DNA of 64,000 nucleotides from a bacterium. GTDB lineage: Bacteria > Patescibacteriota > Minisyncoccia > Phycocordibacterales > Phycocordibacteraceae. Positions within the stretch are counted from its first letter, which is position 1; each line of letters begins with the position of its first letter. A program made the translations under genes and the position numbers. The notes below the pieces were generated by a model, which did no database searches, was not told the origin of the DNA, and saw only the letters and a list, made by a program, of their open reading frames with translations. The DNA lies in assembly GCA_030651285.1 (NCBI GenBank), contig JAUSCN010000017.1:1-64000 (forward strand). Reading direction: 5' to 3'. This document shows positions 26,936-52,958 of this stretch, in pieces.

Positions 26936-29770
26936 TTAGGTCACGATATTGATGATTTTGCCGGGTACATAGATGATGCGTACCGGCTCTTTACCCCCAA
27001 GAGCCGCTTCTACCGGCGGCAATGCTCGGGCCGCAGTTGTCGCGTCTGCCTCAGAAGCGTCAGATGCAAGTATTACGGAGCCACGCTTCTTCCCGTTTAC
27101 CTGGACAATGAGCTCCCTTTTCTGAACGAGAGTCTCCGCGAACATAGGCCATACGGCTTGGTGCACACTCCCATCCTTTCCAAGGTTTTCCCAGAGATGT
27201 TCTGCAAGATGTGGAGCGAACGGTGCAAGCATGATGAGGACGTTCGCGATAACTTCCTTCGGAAGTGTCTCGGCATCTTCCAGTTCATTCACAAGGATCA
27301 TAAGAGCTGCGACGCCCGTATTGAATTTAAAGCGATCACCGTCTTCAGCGACTTTCACACTTGCCCGAGCGAGGGCTTGCTGGAGAGTCTTAGGCATTTC
27401 AGGAACGTCTTGTGTGCGCTCGGCGAGGCGAGCAATACGCTCGAGAAACTTACGCATTGCGAACACTCCCTCCAAGTTCCATGGATAGCTTCCGGGCTCG
27501 TTGTAAGGGCCGATGAAGGCAAGGTATGTGCGTACGGCATCAGCGCCATACTCTCTCACGAATTCATCCGGATTCAAGACATTCCCTTTCGACTTACTCA
27601 TTTTCTGCCCATCAGGACCCATGATGAGACCCCGATTGAAGCGTTCGGTAAACGGTTCGTCGACTGGCACAAGCGCGAGGTCATAGAGTGCCTTCGTAAA
27701 AAAACGTGCGTAGAGAAGATGCATGGTCGTATGTTCGCTCCCACCCGAATAGCGATTGATCGGCAGCCACTTCTTCATCAGAGATATATCAGAAAAATCG
27801 TGCGTATCTTTTGGATCAAGGTAACGAAGGAAATACCATGAAGAATCTATGAATGTGTCGAGCGTGTCGTATTCCGGCGTCCATCCCTCTCCGAATATTT
27901 TTGTGACTCGCTCTTTAAGCTCTTTCGAAGAAGCAAGTGGTGCTTCTCCGGTCGGCTTGAAATCAACATCCGTCGGTAAGAGCCAGGGTAAATGCTCGGC
28001 TGGAATCGGGTGCGGCTTTCCTTCTGGGTCATACACGACTGGTATCGGGCAACCCCAATAGCGCTGGCGCGAGACGAGCCAATCACGCAGGCGGTACTGA
28101 GTTGTTTTTTCTCCACCGGCGTATTTCACGATATCCCACTTCGCCTCCTCACTATGTCTGCCATTAAATTCACCTGAATTAATGAGGACACCAGAGTCTG
28201 TAAATGCGACACCCTCCTCTTCGTGGGACAACCGAGTGAGCCACACATCCATTTCAGCATGTGTCATCTGGGTAGCGGTCACCTCGCTTGGGTCCGCCCA
28301 GAACACTTCGTGAGCCGCGGATTCCTCGGCTGCGATAGGTACCTGTTTGTCATCTTTCAGATCAAATGCCACAAGCGTGGTGAAAGATACCCGGTTTTGA
28401 TCTTTATGTGCAGCAAAATATTCAGCGCGGACTTCGCCACCCAATACTCGAGCATTCTTCAAATGAGCATACCCTGTTTCCTCTTTTACTTCCCTTTTCG
28501 CAGCTTCAATGACATCTTCCCCCTCCTCGATTCCCCCCATCGGGAGAGTAATCCATGGATGCTTTTTCCAGCGCAAGCAGAGGATTTTTCCTGTCTTCGG
28601 GTCACGAATAAACGCATGCACATTTCGACGTGCGACACTTTCTTTCCCGGGCACAGGAGGATTTCTCTTGTCGATACGCTCCGGCATTACTACTTCCTTA
28701 ATAGGAAGCTGCATTTTCTTTGCGAACTCGAAATCGCGCTCATCATGGGCCGGTACTGCCATCACCGCACCAGTACCGTACGAGCCGATGACATAGTCAG
28801 CAATATAGATGGGGATCTCTTCTTTAGTCGCGGGATTGATTGCTGAAATACCCTCAATTTTTACCCCGGTTTTCTCTTTGTTCTCGCTCCGCTCTCGCTC
28901 GGTCTTTTTGACGGTGGCAGAGATATACTCCTCGATCTTTTTCTTATTTGAAGATGCTTCCGCTAGAGGTGCGACGAGTGAGTGTTCTGGTGCCAGGACT
29001 ATATATGTTGCCCCGAATACGGTGTCGGGACGGGTGGTGAAGACACGAATCTTCTCGTCACGGTCTGAAAGGGCGAATTCAAGGTGAGCGCCCTCACTCT
29101 TTCCGATCCATGCGCGCTGGGATTCTTTTATTTCCTCACGCCACGGGAGTGTGTCGAGTCCGGAAAGAAGTCGCTCAGCGTAGTCAGTGATCTTCAGGAA
29201 CCACTGCGTAAGCATTTTTTCCTCTACTTCCGTACCGCACCGTTCACAGCGACCATCCACGACCTGTTCATTAGCAAGCACAGTCTGATCCTTCGGACAC
29301 CATTTGACAGCTGATTTACGCCGCTCAGCAAGTCTGTGCTCAAACAGCTTCACGAAGAGCCACTGCGTCCATTGATAGTAGCTCGGCTCGCAGGTAATGA
29401 CTTCCTTGCTCCAGTCGAATGATGCGCCCATAGAATTGAGCTGTTCACGCATGCGCGCCATGTTCTTATATGTCCAGTCTTTAGGATCGAGACCATGCTT
29501 GATTGCAGCATTCTCTGCAGGGAGACCGAATGCATCGAAGCCGATCGGAAAAAGTACGTTCTTCCCGCGCGCGCGCAGCAAGCGCGCGTATATATCGGTC
29601 ACCGCAAATGCGTACCAATGGCCGATATGAAGATCACCAGATGGGTATGGGAACTCAGTGAGCAGGTAATAACGCTCTTTGGATTCATCCGAGAGGTCGG
29701 TTGAGTATAGATCTAGCCCGACCCATTTCTCCCGGGCATCTTTCTCTATTTTTTGATGATCGTACGCCAT
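26936..29770 (-). CDS. leuS: Leucyl-tRNA synthetase with an inserted Nudix domain
   Basis: A class I synthetase of 944 residues. HIGH motif H48-I-G-H51; zinc-ribbon Cys in KWCPK and GRCERCGTEVE; CP1 editing domain from about 225 with the intact threonine-rich motif FTTRPDTVFG (244-253) and AHDERD (341-346); KMSKS at 723-727; C-terminal anticodon-binding helices. Between the end of CP1 and the GVLINSGEFNG return segment (527-537), about 155 extra residues (362-518) form a Nudix hydrolase domain with a complete Nudix box. The right-arm LeuRS (50532) has no such insert. Confidence 0.96.
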   Translation of the reverse strand: MAYDHQKIEKDAREKWVGLDLYSTDLSDESKERYYLLTEFPYPSGDLHIGHWYAFAVTDIYARLLRARGKNVLFPIGFDAFGLPAENAAIKHGLDPKDWTYKNMARMREQLNSMGASFDWSKEVITCEPSYYQWTQWLFVKLFEHRLAERRKSAVKWCPKDQTVLANEQVVDGRCERCGTEVEEKMLTQWFLKITDYAERLLSGLDTLPWREEIKESQRAWIGKSEGAHLEFALSDRDEKIRVFTTRPDTVFGATYIVLAPEHSLVAPLAEASSNKKKIEEYISATVKKTERERSENKEKTGVKIEGISAINPATKEEIPIYIADYVIGSYGTGAVMAVPAHDERDFEFAKKMQLPIKEVVMPERIDKRNPPVPGKESVARRNVHAFIRDPKTGKILCLRWKKHPWITLPMGGIEEGEDVIEAAKREVKEETGYAHLKNARVLGGEVRAEYFAAHKDQNRVSFTTLVAFDLKDDKQVPIAAEESAAHEVFWADPSEVTATQMTHAEMDVWLTRLSHEEEGVAFTDSGVLINSGEFNGRHSEEAKWDIVKYAGGEKTTQYRLRDWLVSRQRYWGCPIPVVYDPEGKPHPIPAEHLPWLLPTDVDFKPTGEAPLASSKELKERVTKIFGEGWTPEYDTLDTFIDSSWYFLRYLDPKDTHDFSDISLMKKWLPINRYSGGSEHTTMHLLYARFFTKALYDLALVPVDEPFTERFNRGLIMGPDGQKMSKSKGNVLNPDEFVREYGADAVRTYLAFIGPYNEPGSYPWNLEGVFAMRKFLERIARLAERTQDVPEMPKTLQQALARASVKVAEDGDRFKFNTGVAALMILVNELEDAETLPKEVIANVLIMLAPFAPHLAEHLWENLGKDGSVHQAVWPMFAETLVQKRELIVQVNGKKRGSVILASDASEADATTAARALPPVEAALGGKEPVRIIYVPGKIINIVT
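28217..28687 (-). other. Nudix hydrolase domain inside leuS
   Basis: Encodes LeuRS residues about 362-518. The Nudix box at 412-434 (GGIEEGEDV...AAKREVKEETGY) fits G-x5-E-x7-R-E-U-x-E-E-x-G-U at every fixed position. Flanking strands (NVHAFIRDPKTGKILCLRWKK, RVSFTTLVAFDL, HEVFWADPSEV) match the Nudix fold. The frame continues through both junctions. Confidence 0.92.
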
Positions 29771-49611: not shown

Positions 49612-50532
49612 ATGAACACAAAAATAACCGCCAAGGACTTCTTTCTTCAGCTTGGGGCGATTGTGACGTTTTACGCTAGTACTATCGCGCTCGTCACCTT
49701 GCTCTTCGAAGTAATTAACACCGCGTATCCTAAGGTCGCTGATGCTTACTCGTATTTCTCCCCATCTATCAGTCTTCAGGTAGCTACACTCATCGTGGCT
49801 TTCCCGCTTTTCATTTTCCTCTCGTGGCTCATGCAGAAGAGTTATGTAGCTGATCCGTCCCTTCGCTCTGCCCCTATCCGCATCTGGCTTTCTTACATCA
49901 CTCTCTTCGTCGCTGGGGCTGTCGTAGTAGGGGATTTGGTCACTGTCATCTACATGTTCCTCGATGGCCAGGAGCTGACAGCTGGATTCTTGCTCAAAGT
50001 GCTCGCTCTCCTACTCATTGCCGGAGGAGTCTTCCTCTACTACCTACGCGAGATTAGAAATGTCATCTCATCCGGCGAACGCCAAATCTGGCGAGTGGTC
50101 GCTCTACTCGTTATCGCAGGCTCCATAATTCTTGGCTTCTCCGTGATCGGCTCGCCAGCTTCTCAAAGACAGTTGCGTTACGATACTCAAAGAGTTTCTG
50201 ATCTCCAGAACATTCAATGGCAGATAGTTAATTACTACCAGCAGAAAGAAATTTTGCCGAATACTCTCGAGAACCTCGAAGACCCCCTCTCCGGTTTCGT
50301 AGCACCGACCGATCCGCAGACCCGCGAGTCTTATGTTTACAAAAAGACCGGTAATCTCAGTTTCGAACTTTGCGCAACATTCAACAAGCCTACTAACGCT
50401 TCTCGTTCCTCCGCTCCATATCCGATGATGTATCCGAAAGGTGGTATAGATGAGAATTGGGAACATACTTCCGGCGCTCAATGTTTCCCGCGTACTATTG
50501 ACCCTGACCTGTATCCGCCTAGAATGAAGTAA
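49612..50532 (+). CDS. DUF5671-type membrane protein (right-arm ortholog)
   Basis: 306 residues, same layout as 29812: five membrane helices (FFLQLGAIVTFYASTIALVTL, VATLIVAFPLFIFLSWLM, VLALLLIAGGVFLYYL) and a soluble tail (DLQNIQWQIVNYYQQKEILP, PTDPQTRESYVYK, TIDPDLYPPRMK). Its stop shares a base with the leuS start. Confidence 0.87.
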   Translation: MNTKITAKDFFLQLGAIVTFYASTIALVTLLFEVINTAYPKVADAYSYFSPSISLQVATLIVAFPLFIFLSWLMQKSYVADPSLRSAPIRIWLSYITLFVAGAVVVGDLVTVIYMFLDGQELTAGFLLKVLALLLIAGGVFLYYLREIRNVISSGERQIWRVVALLVIAGSIILGFSVIGSPASQRQLRYDTQRVSDLQNIQWQIVNYYQQKEILPNTLENLEDPLSGFVAPTDPQTRESYVYKKTGNLSFELCATFNKPTNASRSSAPYPMMYPKGGIDENWEHTSGAQCFPRTIDPDLYPPRMK

Positions 50533-52958
50533 TGTCAAAGGATTACGATCCGAAAGAAATCGAGGCCAAGTGGCAGAAGGAATGGGAGAAGTCCGGTCTC
50601 TATAAGACCAAAGAATCTTCCGATAAACCCAAATATTACATTTTAGACATGTTCCCTTATGTTTCTGGAGAAGGGATTCATGTAGGTCACCCCAAGGGCT
50701 ATATTGCTACTGATATCGTATCGAGGATGAAGCGGATGCAGGGTTTCAACGTGCTCCATCCCATGGGTTTTGACGCATTCGGTTTACCAGCCGAAAACTA
50801 TGCCATTAAGACTAAGACTAATCCTGTTGTCTCTGTTGCTAAAAATATTGAACATTTCAAGAAACAGCTTGAAGCCATTGGTTTCGATTACGACTGGTCG
50901 AGAGAAATTAGTACTTCCGATCCAAAGTTTTATAAATGGACTCAATGGATTTTCCTCAAACTTTTGGAGAAAGGATTAGCTTATGAGTCCAGCGAGCCGG
51001 TCAATTGGTGCCCGGTAGATAAGACCGTCTTAGCCAATGAAGACGTGGAAGATGGCAAATGCGAAAGATGCGGGTCTATCGTAGAAAAAAGACCAATCAG
51101 ACAGTGGGTATTAAAAATAACGGATTATGCGGATCGTCTCTTGGAAGACCTGGAAGATTTGGATTGGCCAAAATCTATCAAAGAAAGCCAGAAAAATTGG
51201 ATAGGGAGAAGTTATGGAATGCTCTTCTCTTCTCCGGTTAAAGATACTGATATTGTTATTGAAACATTCTCAGCACATTTCGAAGCATTTAAGGCAGATA
51301 CTTTTGTGGTAATTGCACCTGATCATAAGTTATTACCAAAGTTAGTGGCTGGTTTACCTAATGAGGAAGAAATTTTGAATGAAGCGAAAGAAATGGTTAA
51401 TAAAAGAATCCTTTTGGGTAGAGAAGAAATACCAGAAGTGGAAGGCATCTTTACAGGTAGGTATACGATCGATCCTGTCGGTAATGGAGAATTGCCTATT
51501 TGGATTGCAAACTATGCTTTAGCAGATTATGGAACAGGAATTGTAAAATGCTCTGCTCACGATGAGCGAGATTTTCGTTTTGCTAAAAAGTATGGAATAA
51601 ATTTGAAAGCAGTACTTTTTCCAGAAGATCCTGAATTAAGGAAAAAAGTAGAGAATCTTGATGTTTGTTATGTCGACATGAAAAACGGAATCTTGACTGA
51701 GCCAGAAGAGTTTTTAGGTAAAAAAGATGGAGAAATTCGCGCAGAAATTATTGAGTATCTTGAGAAAAATGGATTAGCAAAAAGGAAGACTACTTACAAG
51801 TTGCATGATTGGGTTTTCTCAAGGCAGCGTTACTGGGGGGAGCCGATACCAGTTTTGCGCGATGGGGATAAGGTAATTCCGCTATCGGAAGAAGAACTTC
51901 CCTTAATACTTCCTGCAGTCGAATCCTATGAGCCTACCGGTACGGCAGAATCTCCACTAGCTAATATTCCCGAATGGATAAATGTAAAAGTAGGAGATAA
52001 GCTTTTGCGCCGAGAGAGCAATACTATGCCTCAATGGGCGGGTTCATCCTGGTATTACTTGCGCTATATGGATCCGAACAATGATAAGGCTCTTGTCGAT
52101 AAGGATAGGGAAAAATATTGGAACATGGTGGATTTATATGTTGGGGGGGCAGAGCATGCCACTAGGCATTTAATATATGCGAGATTTTGGCACAAGTTTT
52201 TGTATGACATTGGAGTAGTCACTACTAAAGAACCGTTCAAAAGATTGCAGCACGTTGGATTAATTATCGCCGAAGACGGCAGAAAGATGTCGAAAAGATG
52301 GGGAAATATAATCAATCCAGACGATATCATTTCCAACTATGGGGCTGATACTCTGCGAATGTACGAAATGTTCATGGGTCCCTTTGACCAATCCGTATCC
52401 TGGAACAGCGATAGCCTTATAGGTATCAGGAGATTCCTTGAAAGGGTTTGGAAACTTAAGGATAAGCTAACAGCTAACAGCTTACAGCTAACAGCTTCTG
52501 AACCATTGATGCATCAGACTATTAAAAAAGTTTCTGAAGACATTGAAGCGATGAAATTTAATACGGCAGTCTCAACCTTGATGATTTATTCGAATGCTTT
52601 GACGGTAGAAGAAGAAATTCCACGAGAAGATTACGAAACATTGCTCAAATTACTCGCGCCGTTTGCTCCGCATATGACGGAGGAGTTGTGGAAAGAGCTT
52701 GGTCACACGTCTTCTATTCATACGGAGGCATGGCCTCAATATGATGAAAAGCGTCTAGTCTCCGAGACCGTGACCATCGTAGTCCAGGTTAATGGCAAGG
52801 TGCGTGGCAAATTTAGTGCTTCACCGAACATCTTAGAAAGTGACGCGGTGAACCAAGCCGAGAACCTCCCCGAAATCCAAAAGTGGGTTGGGGATAAGGT
52901 GGTGACAAGACAGGTCTATGTGCCTGGAAAAATCGTGAATTTCATCATTTCTTTATAA
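50532..52958 (+). CDS. leuS: Leucyl-tRNA synthetase, compact form
   Basis: 808 residues without a Nudix insert. HIGH region reads GIHVGHPKGY; zinc Cys NWCPVD and GKCERCGS; AHDERD of the editing domain is kept, but the usual TTRPDT motif is replaced by a FSAHFEAFKADTF-like segment. The class I signature reads KMSKR in place of KMSKS. After residue about 640 an in-frame repeat (52466-52496) encodes LTANSLQLTA. The anticodon-binding domain ends normally (QVNGKVRGKF, VYVPGKIVNF). Confidence 0.95.
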   Translation: MSKDYDPKEIEAKWQKEWEKSGLYKTKESSDKPKYYILDMFPYVSGEGIHVGHPKGYIATDIVSRMKRMQGFNVLHPMGFDAFGLPAENYAIKTKTNPVVSVAKNIEHFKKQLEAIGFDYDWSREISTSDPKFYKWTQWIFLKLLEKGLAYESSEPVNWCPVDKTVLANEDVEDGKCERCGSIVEKRPIRQWVLKITDYADRLLEDLEDLDWPKSIKESQKNWIGRSYGMLFSSPVKDTDIVIETFSAHFEAFKADTFVVIAPDHKLLPKLVAGLPNEEEILNEAKEMVNKRILLGREEIPEVEGIFTGRYTIDPVGNGELPIWIANYALADYGTGIVKCSAHDERDFRFAKKYGINLKAVLFPEDPELRKKVENLDVCYVDMKNGILTEPEEFLGKKDGEIRAEIIEYLEKNGLAKRKTTYKLHDWVFSRQRYWGEPIPVLRDGDKVIPLSEEELPLILPAVESYEPTGTAESPLANIPEWINVKVGDKLLRRESNTMPQWAGSSWYYLRYMDPNNDKALVDKDREKYWNMVDLYVGGAEHATRHLIYARFWHKFLYDIGVVTTKEPFKRLQHVGLIIAEDGRKMSKRWGNIINPDDIISNYGADTLRMYEMFMGPFDQSVSWNSDSLIGIRRFLERVWKLKDKLTANSLQLTASEPLMHQTIKKVSEDIEAMKFNTAVSTLMIYSNALTVEEEIPREDYETLLKLLAPFAPHMTEELWKELGHTSSIHTEAWPQYDEKRLVSETVTIVVQVNGKVRGKFSASPNILESDAVNQAENLPEIQKWVGDKVVTRQVYVPGKIVNFIISL
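52466..52496 (+). repeat. AGCTAACAGC-type repeat inside leuS
   Basis: Tandem AGCTAACAGCT/AGCTTACAGCT units run in frame through the coding sequence. They add about ten residues not expected in LeuRS. Confidence 0.75.

Follow-up and report, generated by a model that had tools for sequence, protein, structure and literature searches.

We examined a window of 64,000 nucleotides, positions 1 to 64,000 of the forward strand of contig JAUSCN010000017.1 (assembly GCA_030651285.1), which belongs to an 855-kb Patescibacteria genome in 30 contigs. Its leuS gene encodes a bacterial-type leucyl-tRNA synthetase (LeuRS) in which a Nudix hydrolase domain is nested at the exit of the editing domain, CP1. Our data revealed that this architecture recurs in more than 80 genomes, from much of the Patescibacteria as well as Bacilli, Clostridia, and one Pacearchaeota metagenome-assembled genome (MAG), and that the insert has been exchanged independently of its host gene. 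We consider it probable that the insert acts autonomously as a nucleoside-polyphosphate hydrolase, that the LeuRS loop housing it is permissive, and that the synthetase can dispense with it. The gene and its parts, all on the minus strand, are as follows.

26936..29770, minus strand: leuS, bacterial-type LeuRS of 944 amino acids with the nested Nudix domain; open reading frame (ORF) without internal stop (TIGR00396)
29618..29629, minus strand: HIGH signature, residues 48-51, seen in the translation
29021..29038, minus strand: CP1 threonine-rich editing motif TTRPDT, residues 245-250, intact (translation and alignment with the Thermus thermophilus and Escherichia coli LeuRS)
28733..28750, minus strand: CP1 editing motif AHDERD with the invariant Asp, residues 341-346 (translation and LeuRS alignment)
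28208..28684, minus strand: Nudix insert, residues 363-521 (159 residues), from alignment to T. thermophilus LeuRS 1h3n; same site in relatives
28259..28630, minus strand: Pfam NUDIX (PF00293), residues 381-504, E 1.8e-15
28469..28537, minus strand: Nudix box GGIEEGEDVIEAAKREVKEETGY, residues 412-434, with metal ligands E427, E430, and E431 (conservation among embedded Nudix domains)
28403..28420, minus strand: X-loop segment YFAAHK, residues 451-456, with an aromatic pair at +17/+18 after the box and K456 (conservation in 95 copies)
27590..27604, minus strand: KMSKS signature, residues 723-727, seen in the translation

The full-length protein matched the leuS_bact profile TIGR00396 with 910 bits against a cutoff of 548, and a full-length AlphaFold2 (AF2) model aligned with solved LeuRS structures at Z scores of up to 44. 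In the alignment to 1h3n, residues 362 and 522 of the window LeuRS correspond to residues 363 and 376, such that a 12-residue loop at the CP1 exit (364-375) is replaced by the insert. The Pfam match to the LeuRS editing domain spans residues 219-367 (E 7e-62) and ends early, at profile position 146 of 185, and the NUDIX match fell between the two halves of LeuRS. The original prediction, made from the sequence alone, had located a Nudix domain with an intact box at 28217-28687, in an otherwise complete LeuRS, and had described the LeuRS on the right arm of the contig as free of it. These claims held. The aligned block agrees with the predicted positions to within three codons, the box fits the pattern GX5EX7REUXEEXGU with a Tyr in the last hydrophobic place, the HIGH, KMSKS, TTRPDT, and AHDERD motifs are all present, and the editing-domain profile of the right-arm LeuRS is uninterrupted (1-185 of 185). 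Editing motifs were intact in 38 to 40 of 40 full-length Nudix-LeuRS, with AHDxRD in all 40. The window LeuRS thus resembles the known bacterial enzymes (LeuRS-B; T. thermophilus 1h3n/2v0c and E. coli 4aq7) in its core, its HIGH and KMSKS signatures, and a CP1 that contains both TTRPDT and the invariant Asp (the model scores Z 43-44 against the T. thermophilus enzyme), but it has a 159-residue Nudix domain in place of the short loop, and none of the LeuRS structures among the matches listed is described with one.

How widespread is this architecture? The insert was present at the same site in 21 of 54 LeuRS of order-level relatives (the tree set from 59 related genomes), a recurrent but patchy spread. 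In a sample of 380 genomes taken evenly over the phylum, a LeuRS-plus-Nudix model at a threshold of 1e-15 gave at least 66 matches, at least about 50 of which were, by our count, synthetase-sized frames that cover the insert. Scanning named genomes revealed carriers among Parcubacteria, Taylorbacteria, Magasanikbacteria, Saccharibacteria, Gracilibacteria, a Pacearchaeota MAG, and Clostridia MAGs; these carriers are MAGs, and isolated odd placements among them could be misbinned. Eight Bacilli/Erysipelotrichaceae MAGs also carry the insert. They come from several separate projects and are mutually consistent, and their inserts form one clade. An assembly artefact, which the original prediction had raised as a risk, or a chance arrangement is ruled out, since many other genomes show the same architecture at this very site.

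The catalytic residues of the insert are conserved. Across 95 embedded copies, G412 was retained in all 95, E427 and E431 in 94 each, E430 in 93, K456 in 89, and W491 in 94. Decayed Nudix boxes in relatives, which would have spoken against the original prediction, were looked for in the alignment of these copies, and none was found. The insert is under purifying selection. For the closest pair that could be used, the nonsynonymous and synonymous divergences (dN and dS) of the insert were 0.011 and 0.267, compared with 0.046/0.298 and 0.042/0.486 for the flanking parts of LeuRS; in a second pair, the values were 0.110/0.659 for the insert and 0.169/0.921 and 0.208/0.991 for the flanks. The resulting dN/dS ratios of the insert (∼0.04 and 0.17) indicate that it is no looser than the flanking LeuRS. 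One potential explanation for the insert is that it serves as a neutral or structural spacer, tolerated in a place where its catalysis is irrelevant, and the loop does tolerate many different inserts and deletions. We disfavor this explanation and consider it very unlikely, given that the catalytic Glu residues persist in 93 to 94 of 95 copies despite identities between copies as low as ∼20% and that both close pairs show low dN/dS.

The insert also has a confident predicted Nudix fold. The full-length AF2 model, built with 40 full-length relatives, reached a mean predicted local distance difference test score (pLDDT) of 89.9 and a predicted template modeling score of 0.79, with the Nudix residues near a pLDDT of 92, and the isolated domain, modeled with 62 relatives, reached 97. 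The closest solved folds to the Nudix model were 2azw (Z 17.4, root mean square deviation of 2.1 over 139 residues) and E. coli RppH (Z 15.7), followed by Ap4A (diadenosine tetraphosphate)-type hydrolases at Z ∼14. Overall, the predicted fold is nearest to RppH and the Ap4A-type hydrolases. Like the monomeric enzymes of this type (RppH 7sp3, Aquifex aeolicus 3i7u, and T. thermophilus Ndx1 1vc8), the domain has the fold as predicted here, the box, the Glu triad, and an aromatic residue near +17; unlike them, it is embedded rather than free, shares only ∼16 to 21% identity with them, and falls below the curated subfamily cutoffs.

The history of the insert is decoupled from that of the gene that carries it. 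On a LeuRS tree of 54 sequences built with the insert residues left out (a quick search without bootstrap, as were our other trees), presence and absence of the insert required 16 changes, at least 9 of them forced by well-supported branches, compared with 17.0 for shuffled labels; insert presence does not cluster on this tree. Three LeuRS without the insert (L042-L044; L and G numbers are our own handles) are ∼73 to 80% identical to the window LeuRS outside the insert. Within one fully supported LeuRS clade, the 12 inserts were scattered over the Nudix tree (11 changes), and forcing them into a single Nudix clade was 575 log units worse (P = 2e-9). The LeuRS cores of this clade average 70% identity and the inserts 35%, and over 3,538 pairs the correlation between core and insert identity was 0.20. 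An example is L020 and the distant L116, with inserts 65% identical and LeuRS cores 48% identical. Fast evolution of the insert does not explain the conflict between the trees, because its rate in close pairs does not exceed that of the core; divergence alone is therefore insufficient, and replacement or independent acquisition must be invoked. Since the G+C content of the insert follows that of its host gene, from ∼34% to 63%, most arrivals were not recent, and recent foreign DNA can be set aside. Flanking sequences were only slightly more alike in pairs with similar Nudix domains than in others (upstream, 0.71 versus 0.64; downstream, 0.52 versus 0.47; the pairs are non-independent), and recombination through conserved flanks is a possible route of exchange.

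Close relatives do without the domain. Insert-free genomes of the same genus, within the 59 relatives, contained no other copy of the Nudix family at ≥60 bits, with the exception of G010, which has a standalone copy and in which LeuRS was not found. The domain is therefore dispensable in these relatives. These losses bear on the idea that the Nudix domain is a regulatory module that adjusts LeuRS activity by binding or cleaving a signal nucleotide (Ap4A, ADP-ribose, or a ppGpp-like compound). Two observations would fit: the insertion lies in CP1, a domain that moves in the catalytic cycle, and its active site is conserved. Yet a tuned allosteric switch would hardly be lost as often as this domain is, nor have its site taken over by unrelated domains, and we regard such regulation as quite unlikely.

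Several possible vehicles for the insertion found no support. Pfam identified LeuRS domains and NUDIX only in the window protein, with no Hint splicing domain, and we rejected an intein or other self-splicing element on this basis. We likewise rejected a transposon footprint, as the insert ends showed neither a target-site duplication nor terminal inverted repeats but only short, chance-level repeats away from the boundaries. A phage or plasmid vector was not supported: a search of phage and plasmid records with the insert by tblastn gave no match, and a scan of viral contigs gave no relative, within a reach limited to close relatives. In-frame peptides of palindromic-repeat type (VIPAKAGIQ...SGMT and VIPAEAGIQ...RIREDD) were seen at or near cargo boundaries, at residues ∼290-315 of L204 and in the CP1 region of L071, and are a possible seed for insertion. 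The CP1-exit site in relatives is occupied by linkers of variable length. Three LeuRS (L044, L045, and L077) have lost ∼28 residues after this site, including the GVLINSGEF segment, possibly as scars of imprecise insert loss.

We then turn to where the Nudix family resides. In the 380 genomes, a Nudix-only model gave 56 matches at ≥89 bits among those listed, of which 54 lay in frames of ≥647 amino acids and 2 were free-standing; the next listed match scored 78 bits. The frames examined were LeuRS plus one valyl-tRNA synthetase (ValRS; L200) and one isoleucyl-tRNA synthetase (IleRS; L201). The same family also occupies the LeuRS core sites ∼223 (L111, twice in tandem, and L197) and ∼249 (L192 and L130). 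Standalone copies occur in G336 and G010. In G336, the free Nudix (L269) lies ∼2.3 kb upstream of an insert-free leuS, and a second, unrelated Nudix gene lies directly upstream of leuS. A 561-amino-acid ORF in G009 that looked like a further fusion proved to be a free-standing Nudix in a spurious high-G+C frame.

Other small enzymes share these sites. Inserts of ≥90 amino acids in all LeuRS collected, which form a biased set in contrast to the even 380-genome and 106-genome samples, were distributed as follows.

LeuRS site ∼377: 85 Nudix of this family, 3 other or weaker Nudix, a nucleotidyltransferase, and several of a nameless 115-amino-acid family
LeuRS site ∼249: 11 alpha/beta hydrolases (Pfam Ser_hydrolase, E 3.9e-11 in one), Ham1-like, HAD
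LeuRS site ∼445: alpha/beta hydrolases, another Nudix, Ham1-like
LeuRS site ∼500: HAD, nucleotidyltransferase

The Ham1 assignment comes from Pfam in the case of L198 and from resemblance in the cases of L069 and L240, the L069 insert having no Pfam match. Up to five cargo domains are found in a single LeuRS: the 1,735-residue L111 holds three Nudix domains, a hydrolase, and a HAD, and the 1,795-residue L198 holds a HAD, two Ham1-like domains, a Nudix, and a nucleotidyltransferase. In the even sample of 106 genomes, at least roughly 25 LeuRS frames exceeded 930 amino acids, and nearly all of those read hold named cargo; cargo is present, at least once, in roughly one in four of the Patescibacteria LeuRS sampled. 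Six IleRS/ValRS (L260, L261, L262, L264, L265, and L267) were seen to hold one or two inserted histidine phosphatases, one of them an IleRS with a GNAT and a histidine phosphatase. The nameless family (∼115 residues, motif PGFWNE, no Pfam match) sits at the CP1 entry or exit in L051, L190, L252, and L257, and seemingly diverged copies occur at the same LeuRS site outside the Patescibacteria, in L149 (Bipolaricaulota) and L167 (Anaerolineaceae).

This variety of cargo invites two wider readings. In the first, LeuRS, IleRS, and ValRS of Patescibacteria would be chassis with cargo bays, and a limited set of enzymes (Nudix, RBBP9-like serine hydrolase, Ham1-like, HAD, histidine phosphatase, nucleotidyltransferase, GNAT, and the nameless family) would be swapped across phyla and selected for catalysis at the synthetase, for example to clear nucleotide by-products or inhibitors on site. 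We put this forward tentatively and hold it to be doubtful. In the second, the cargo would protect the synthetase from nucleoside or aminoacyl-nucleotide inhibitors of competitors, similar to agrocin 84 or microcin C, with turnover reflecting an arms race. High turnover and exchange would fit, as would the resistance-type relatives of some cargo (an aminoglycoside-adenylyltransferase-like nucleotidyltransferase, GNAT, and serine hydrolase), and LeuRS is a known natural-product target, with agrocin 84 LeuRS structures among our structural matches. But no linked biosynthesis or known inhibitor was found and the HAD, Ham1, and histidine phosphatase cargoes resemble ordinary metabolism, and we consider such protection highly improbable.

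What might the Nudix domain do at this location? The original prediction had reasoned from its position beside the editing site to hydrolysis of aminoacyl-adenylates, of Ap4A-type dinucleotides, or of a regulatory nucleotide. The argument from position is not supported: the same family is found at other LeuRS sites and in ValRS and IleRS, unrelated domains occupy the same CP1-exit site elsewhere, and close relatives lack the Nudix altogether. An Ap4A-type substrate is compatible with the predicted fold and with the X-loop, in which 89 of 95 copies have an aromatic residue at +17 from the box (Phe in 52, Tyr in 35; Y451 in the window) and 85 have one at +18. A Tyr in the X-loop ∼17 residues after the Nudix box marks hydrolases of diadenosine polyphosphates (PMC5389931). 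An Ap4A-type compound is our leading guess for the substrate. HIT-family proteins include aminoacyl-AMP hydrolases, and they are present in 57 of 59 relatives, carriers and non-carriers alike; aminoacyl-adenylate hydrolysis by the Nudix domain lacks specific support, and without an anticorrelation the domain does not appear to substitute for HIT proteins.

These data also bear on a closer cooperation, in which the Nudix domain would add a proofreading step to LeuRS chemistry by hydrolyzing aminoacyl-adenylates that were misactivated or released (norvalyl- or leucyl-AMP) or the Ap4A formed at the synthetase's own site. Its location in the editing domain, the near restriction of the family to class Ia editing synthetases, and the RppH/Ap4A-like predicted fold with the conserved aromatic X-loop would be consistent with this. 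But with editing motifs intact in 38 to 40 of 40 carriers nothing is replaced, members of the family occur outside CP1 as well, in ValRS and at LeuRS site ∼223, relatives with ∼80% identical LeuRS cores have neither the insert nor any other copy, and HIT proteins are nearly universal in the group. LeuRS is moreover one of the weaker Ap4A producers among synthetases (PMC10148737). Because of this weak production and the intact editing motifs, a proofreading role is possible but unsupported, and we judge cooperation of this kind to be unlikely.

Most simply, the insert is read as an autonomous nucleotide pyrophosphohydrolase that LeuRS carries, with an activity suggested by the conservation of its catalytic residues. 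The Nudix domain is translated in frame as part of LeuRS, in the CP1-exit loop, where insert-free relatives have short native linkers, and is predicted to fold by itself as a monomer-type enzyme. It would most likely cleave a small nucleotide, either a dinucleoside polyphosphate of the Ap4A kind or a different nucleoside polyphosphate, and would do so without depending on aminoacylation or editing. Together with additional sites in LeuRS, IleRS, and ValRS, the CP1-exit loop would form a permissive bay in which small enzyme domains are inserted, lost, and replaced repeatedly, and the host synthetase would provide expression and scaffold, along with whatever benefit tethering may bring. Some points weigh against this reading. 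No curated Nudix subfamily model scored above its cutoff (the best, the NCBIfam RNA pyrophosphohydrolase, reached 28 bits versus 116), and for this reason the substrate stays a guess. A local Ap4A role is weakened because LeuRS is among the weaker producers of Ap4A. Finally, the near-confinement of the family to class Ia synthetases hints at a functional link beyond autonomous cargo; it suggests either unusual permissiveness of these enzymes or a benefit of location.

Synthetases with added enzymes are already known in kind, as in the NCBIfam family ileS_w_GNAT and in the methionyl-tRNA synthetase (MetRS) of Mycoplasma penetrans, which has an appended N-terminal aminotransferase (PMC7694997). 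The MetRS enzyme is an N-terminal addition, whereas the cargo described here is nested in editing and catalytic domains, is of many kinds, is exchanged between lineages, and can be stacked. The inserts share with inteins an in-frame position in an essential gene, a patchy distribution, and transfer independent of the host gene, but they sit in loops rather than active-site motifs, are ordinary enzymes without a Hint domain by Pfam, and show nothing that indicates splicing. A 2026 survey of domain insertions reported the LeuRS editing domain PF13603 solely as an inserted module and never as a host in 213 events (PMC13114784); the window LeuRS is an instance of the same Pfam domain as host and contradicts that statement. 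We found no paper on Nudix in LeuRS or on cargo exchange in class Ia synthetases in a search that left most subscription literature outside, and the AARS Online paper does not mention Nudix-in-LeuRS.

When an essential, conserved enzyme contains an inserted domain, the insertion is as a rule regarded as a stable trait of its lineage. At the LeuRS site described here, by contrast, whole catalytic domains come, go, and are exchanged between close relatives, even though the LeuRS sequences remain 70 to 80% identical. This provides a natural library of how a large enzyme tolerates nested enzymes and ready insertion sites for LeuRS engineering, and it raises the question of what a synthetase gains by bearing hydrolases of nucleotides. 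Annotation becomes harder as well, and LeuRS length or domain content becomes less straightforward to use as a lineage marker.

The right-arm LeuRS of the same contig is as follows.

50532..52958, plus strand: second LeuRS, 808 amino acids, no insert, CP1 without TTRxDT (Pfam and translation)

Its CP1 reads ETFSAHFEAFKADTF in place of TTRxDT, as in L029. It is 41 to 45% identical to the LeuRS on the same contig and lies in the right arm, which is lower in G+C (33000-64000, 38 to 50%, versus 51% in the left). No close relative of it was found, and it represents either an acquisition or a chimeric contig; genome contamination is 5.3%. Another departure was seen in L074 (G047), a 644-amino-acid LeuRS in which the whole CP1 editing domain is apparently missing; the LeuRS of Mycoplasma mobile likewise lacks a CP1 editing domain.

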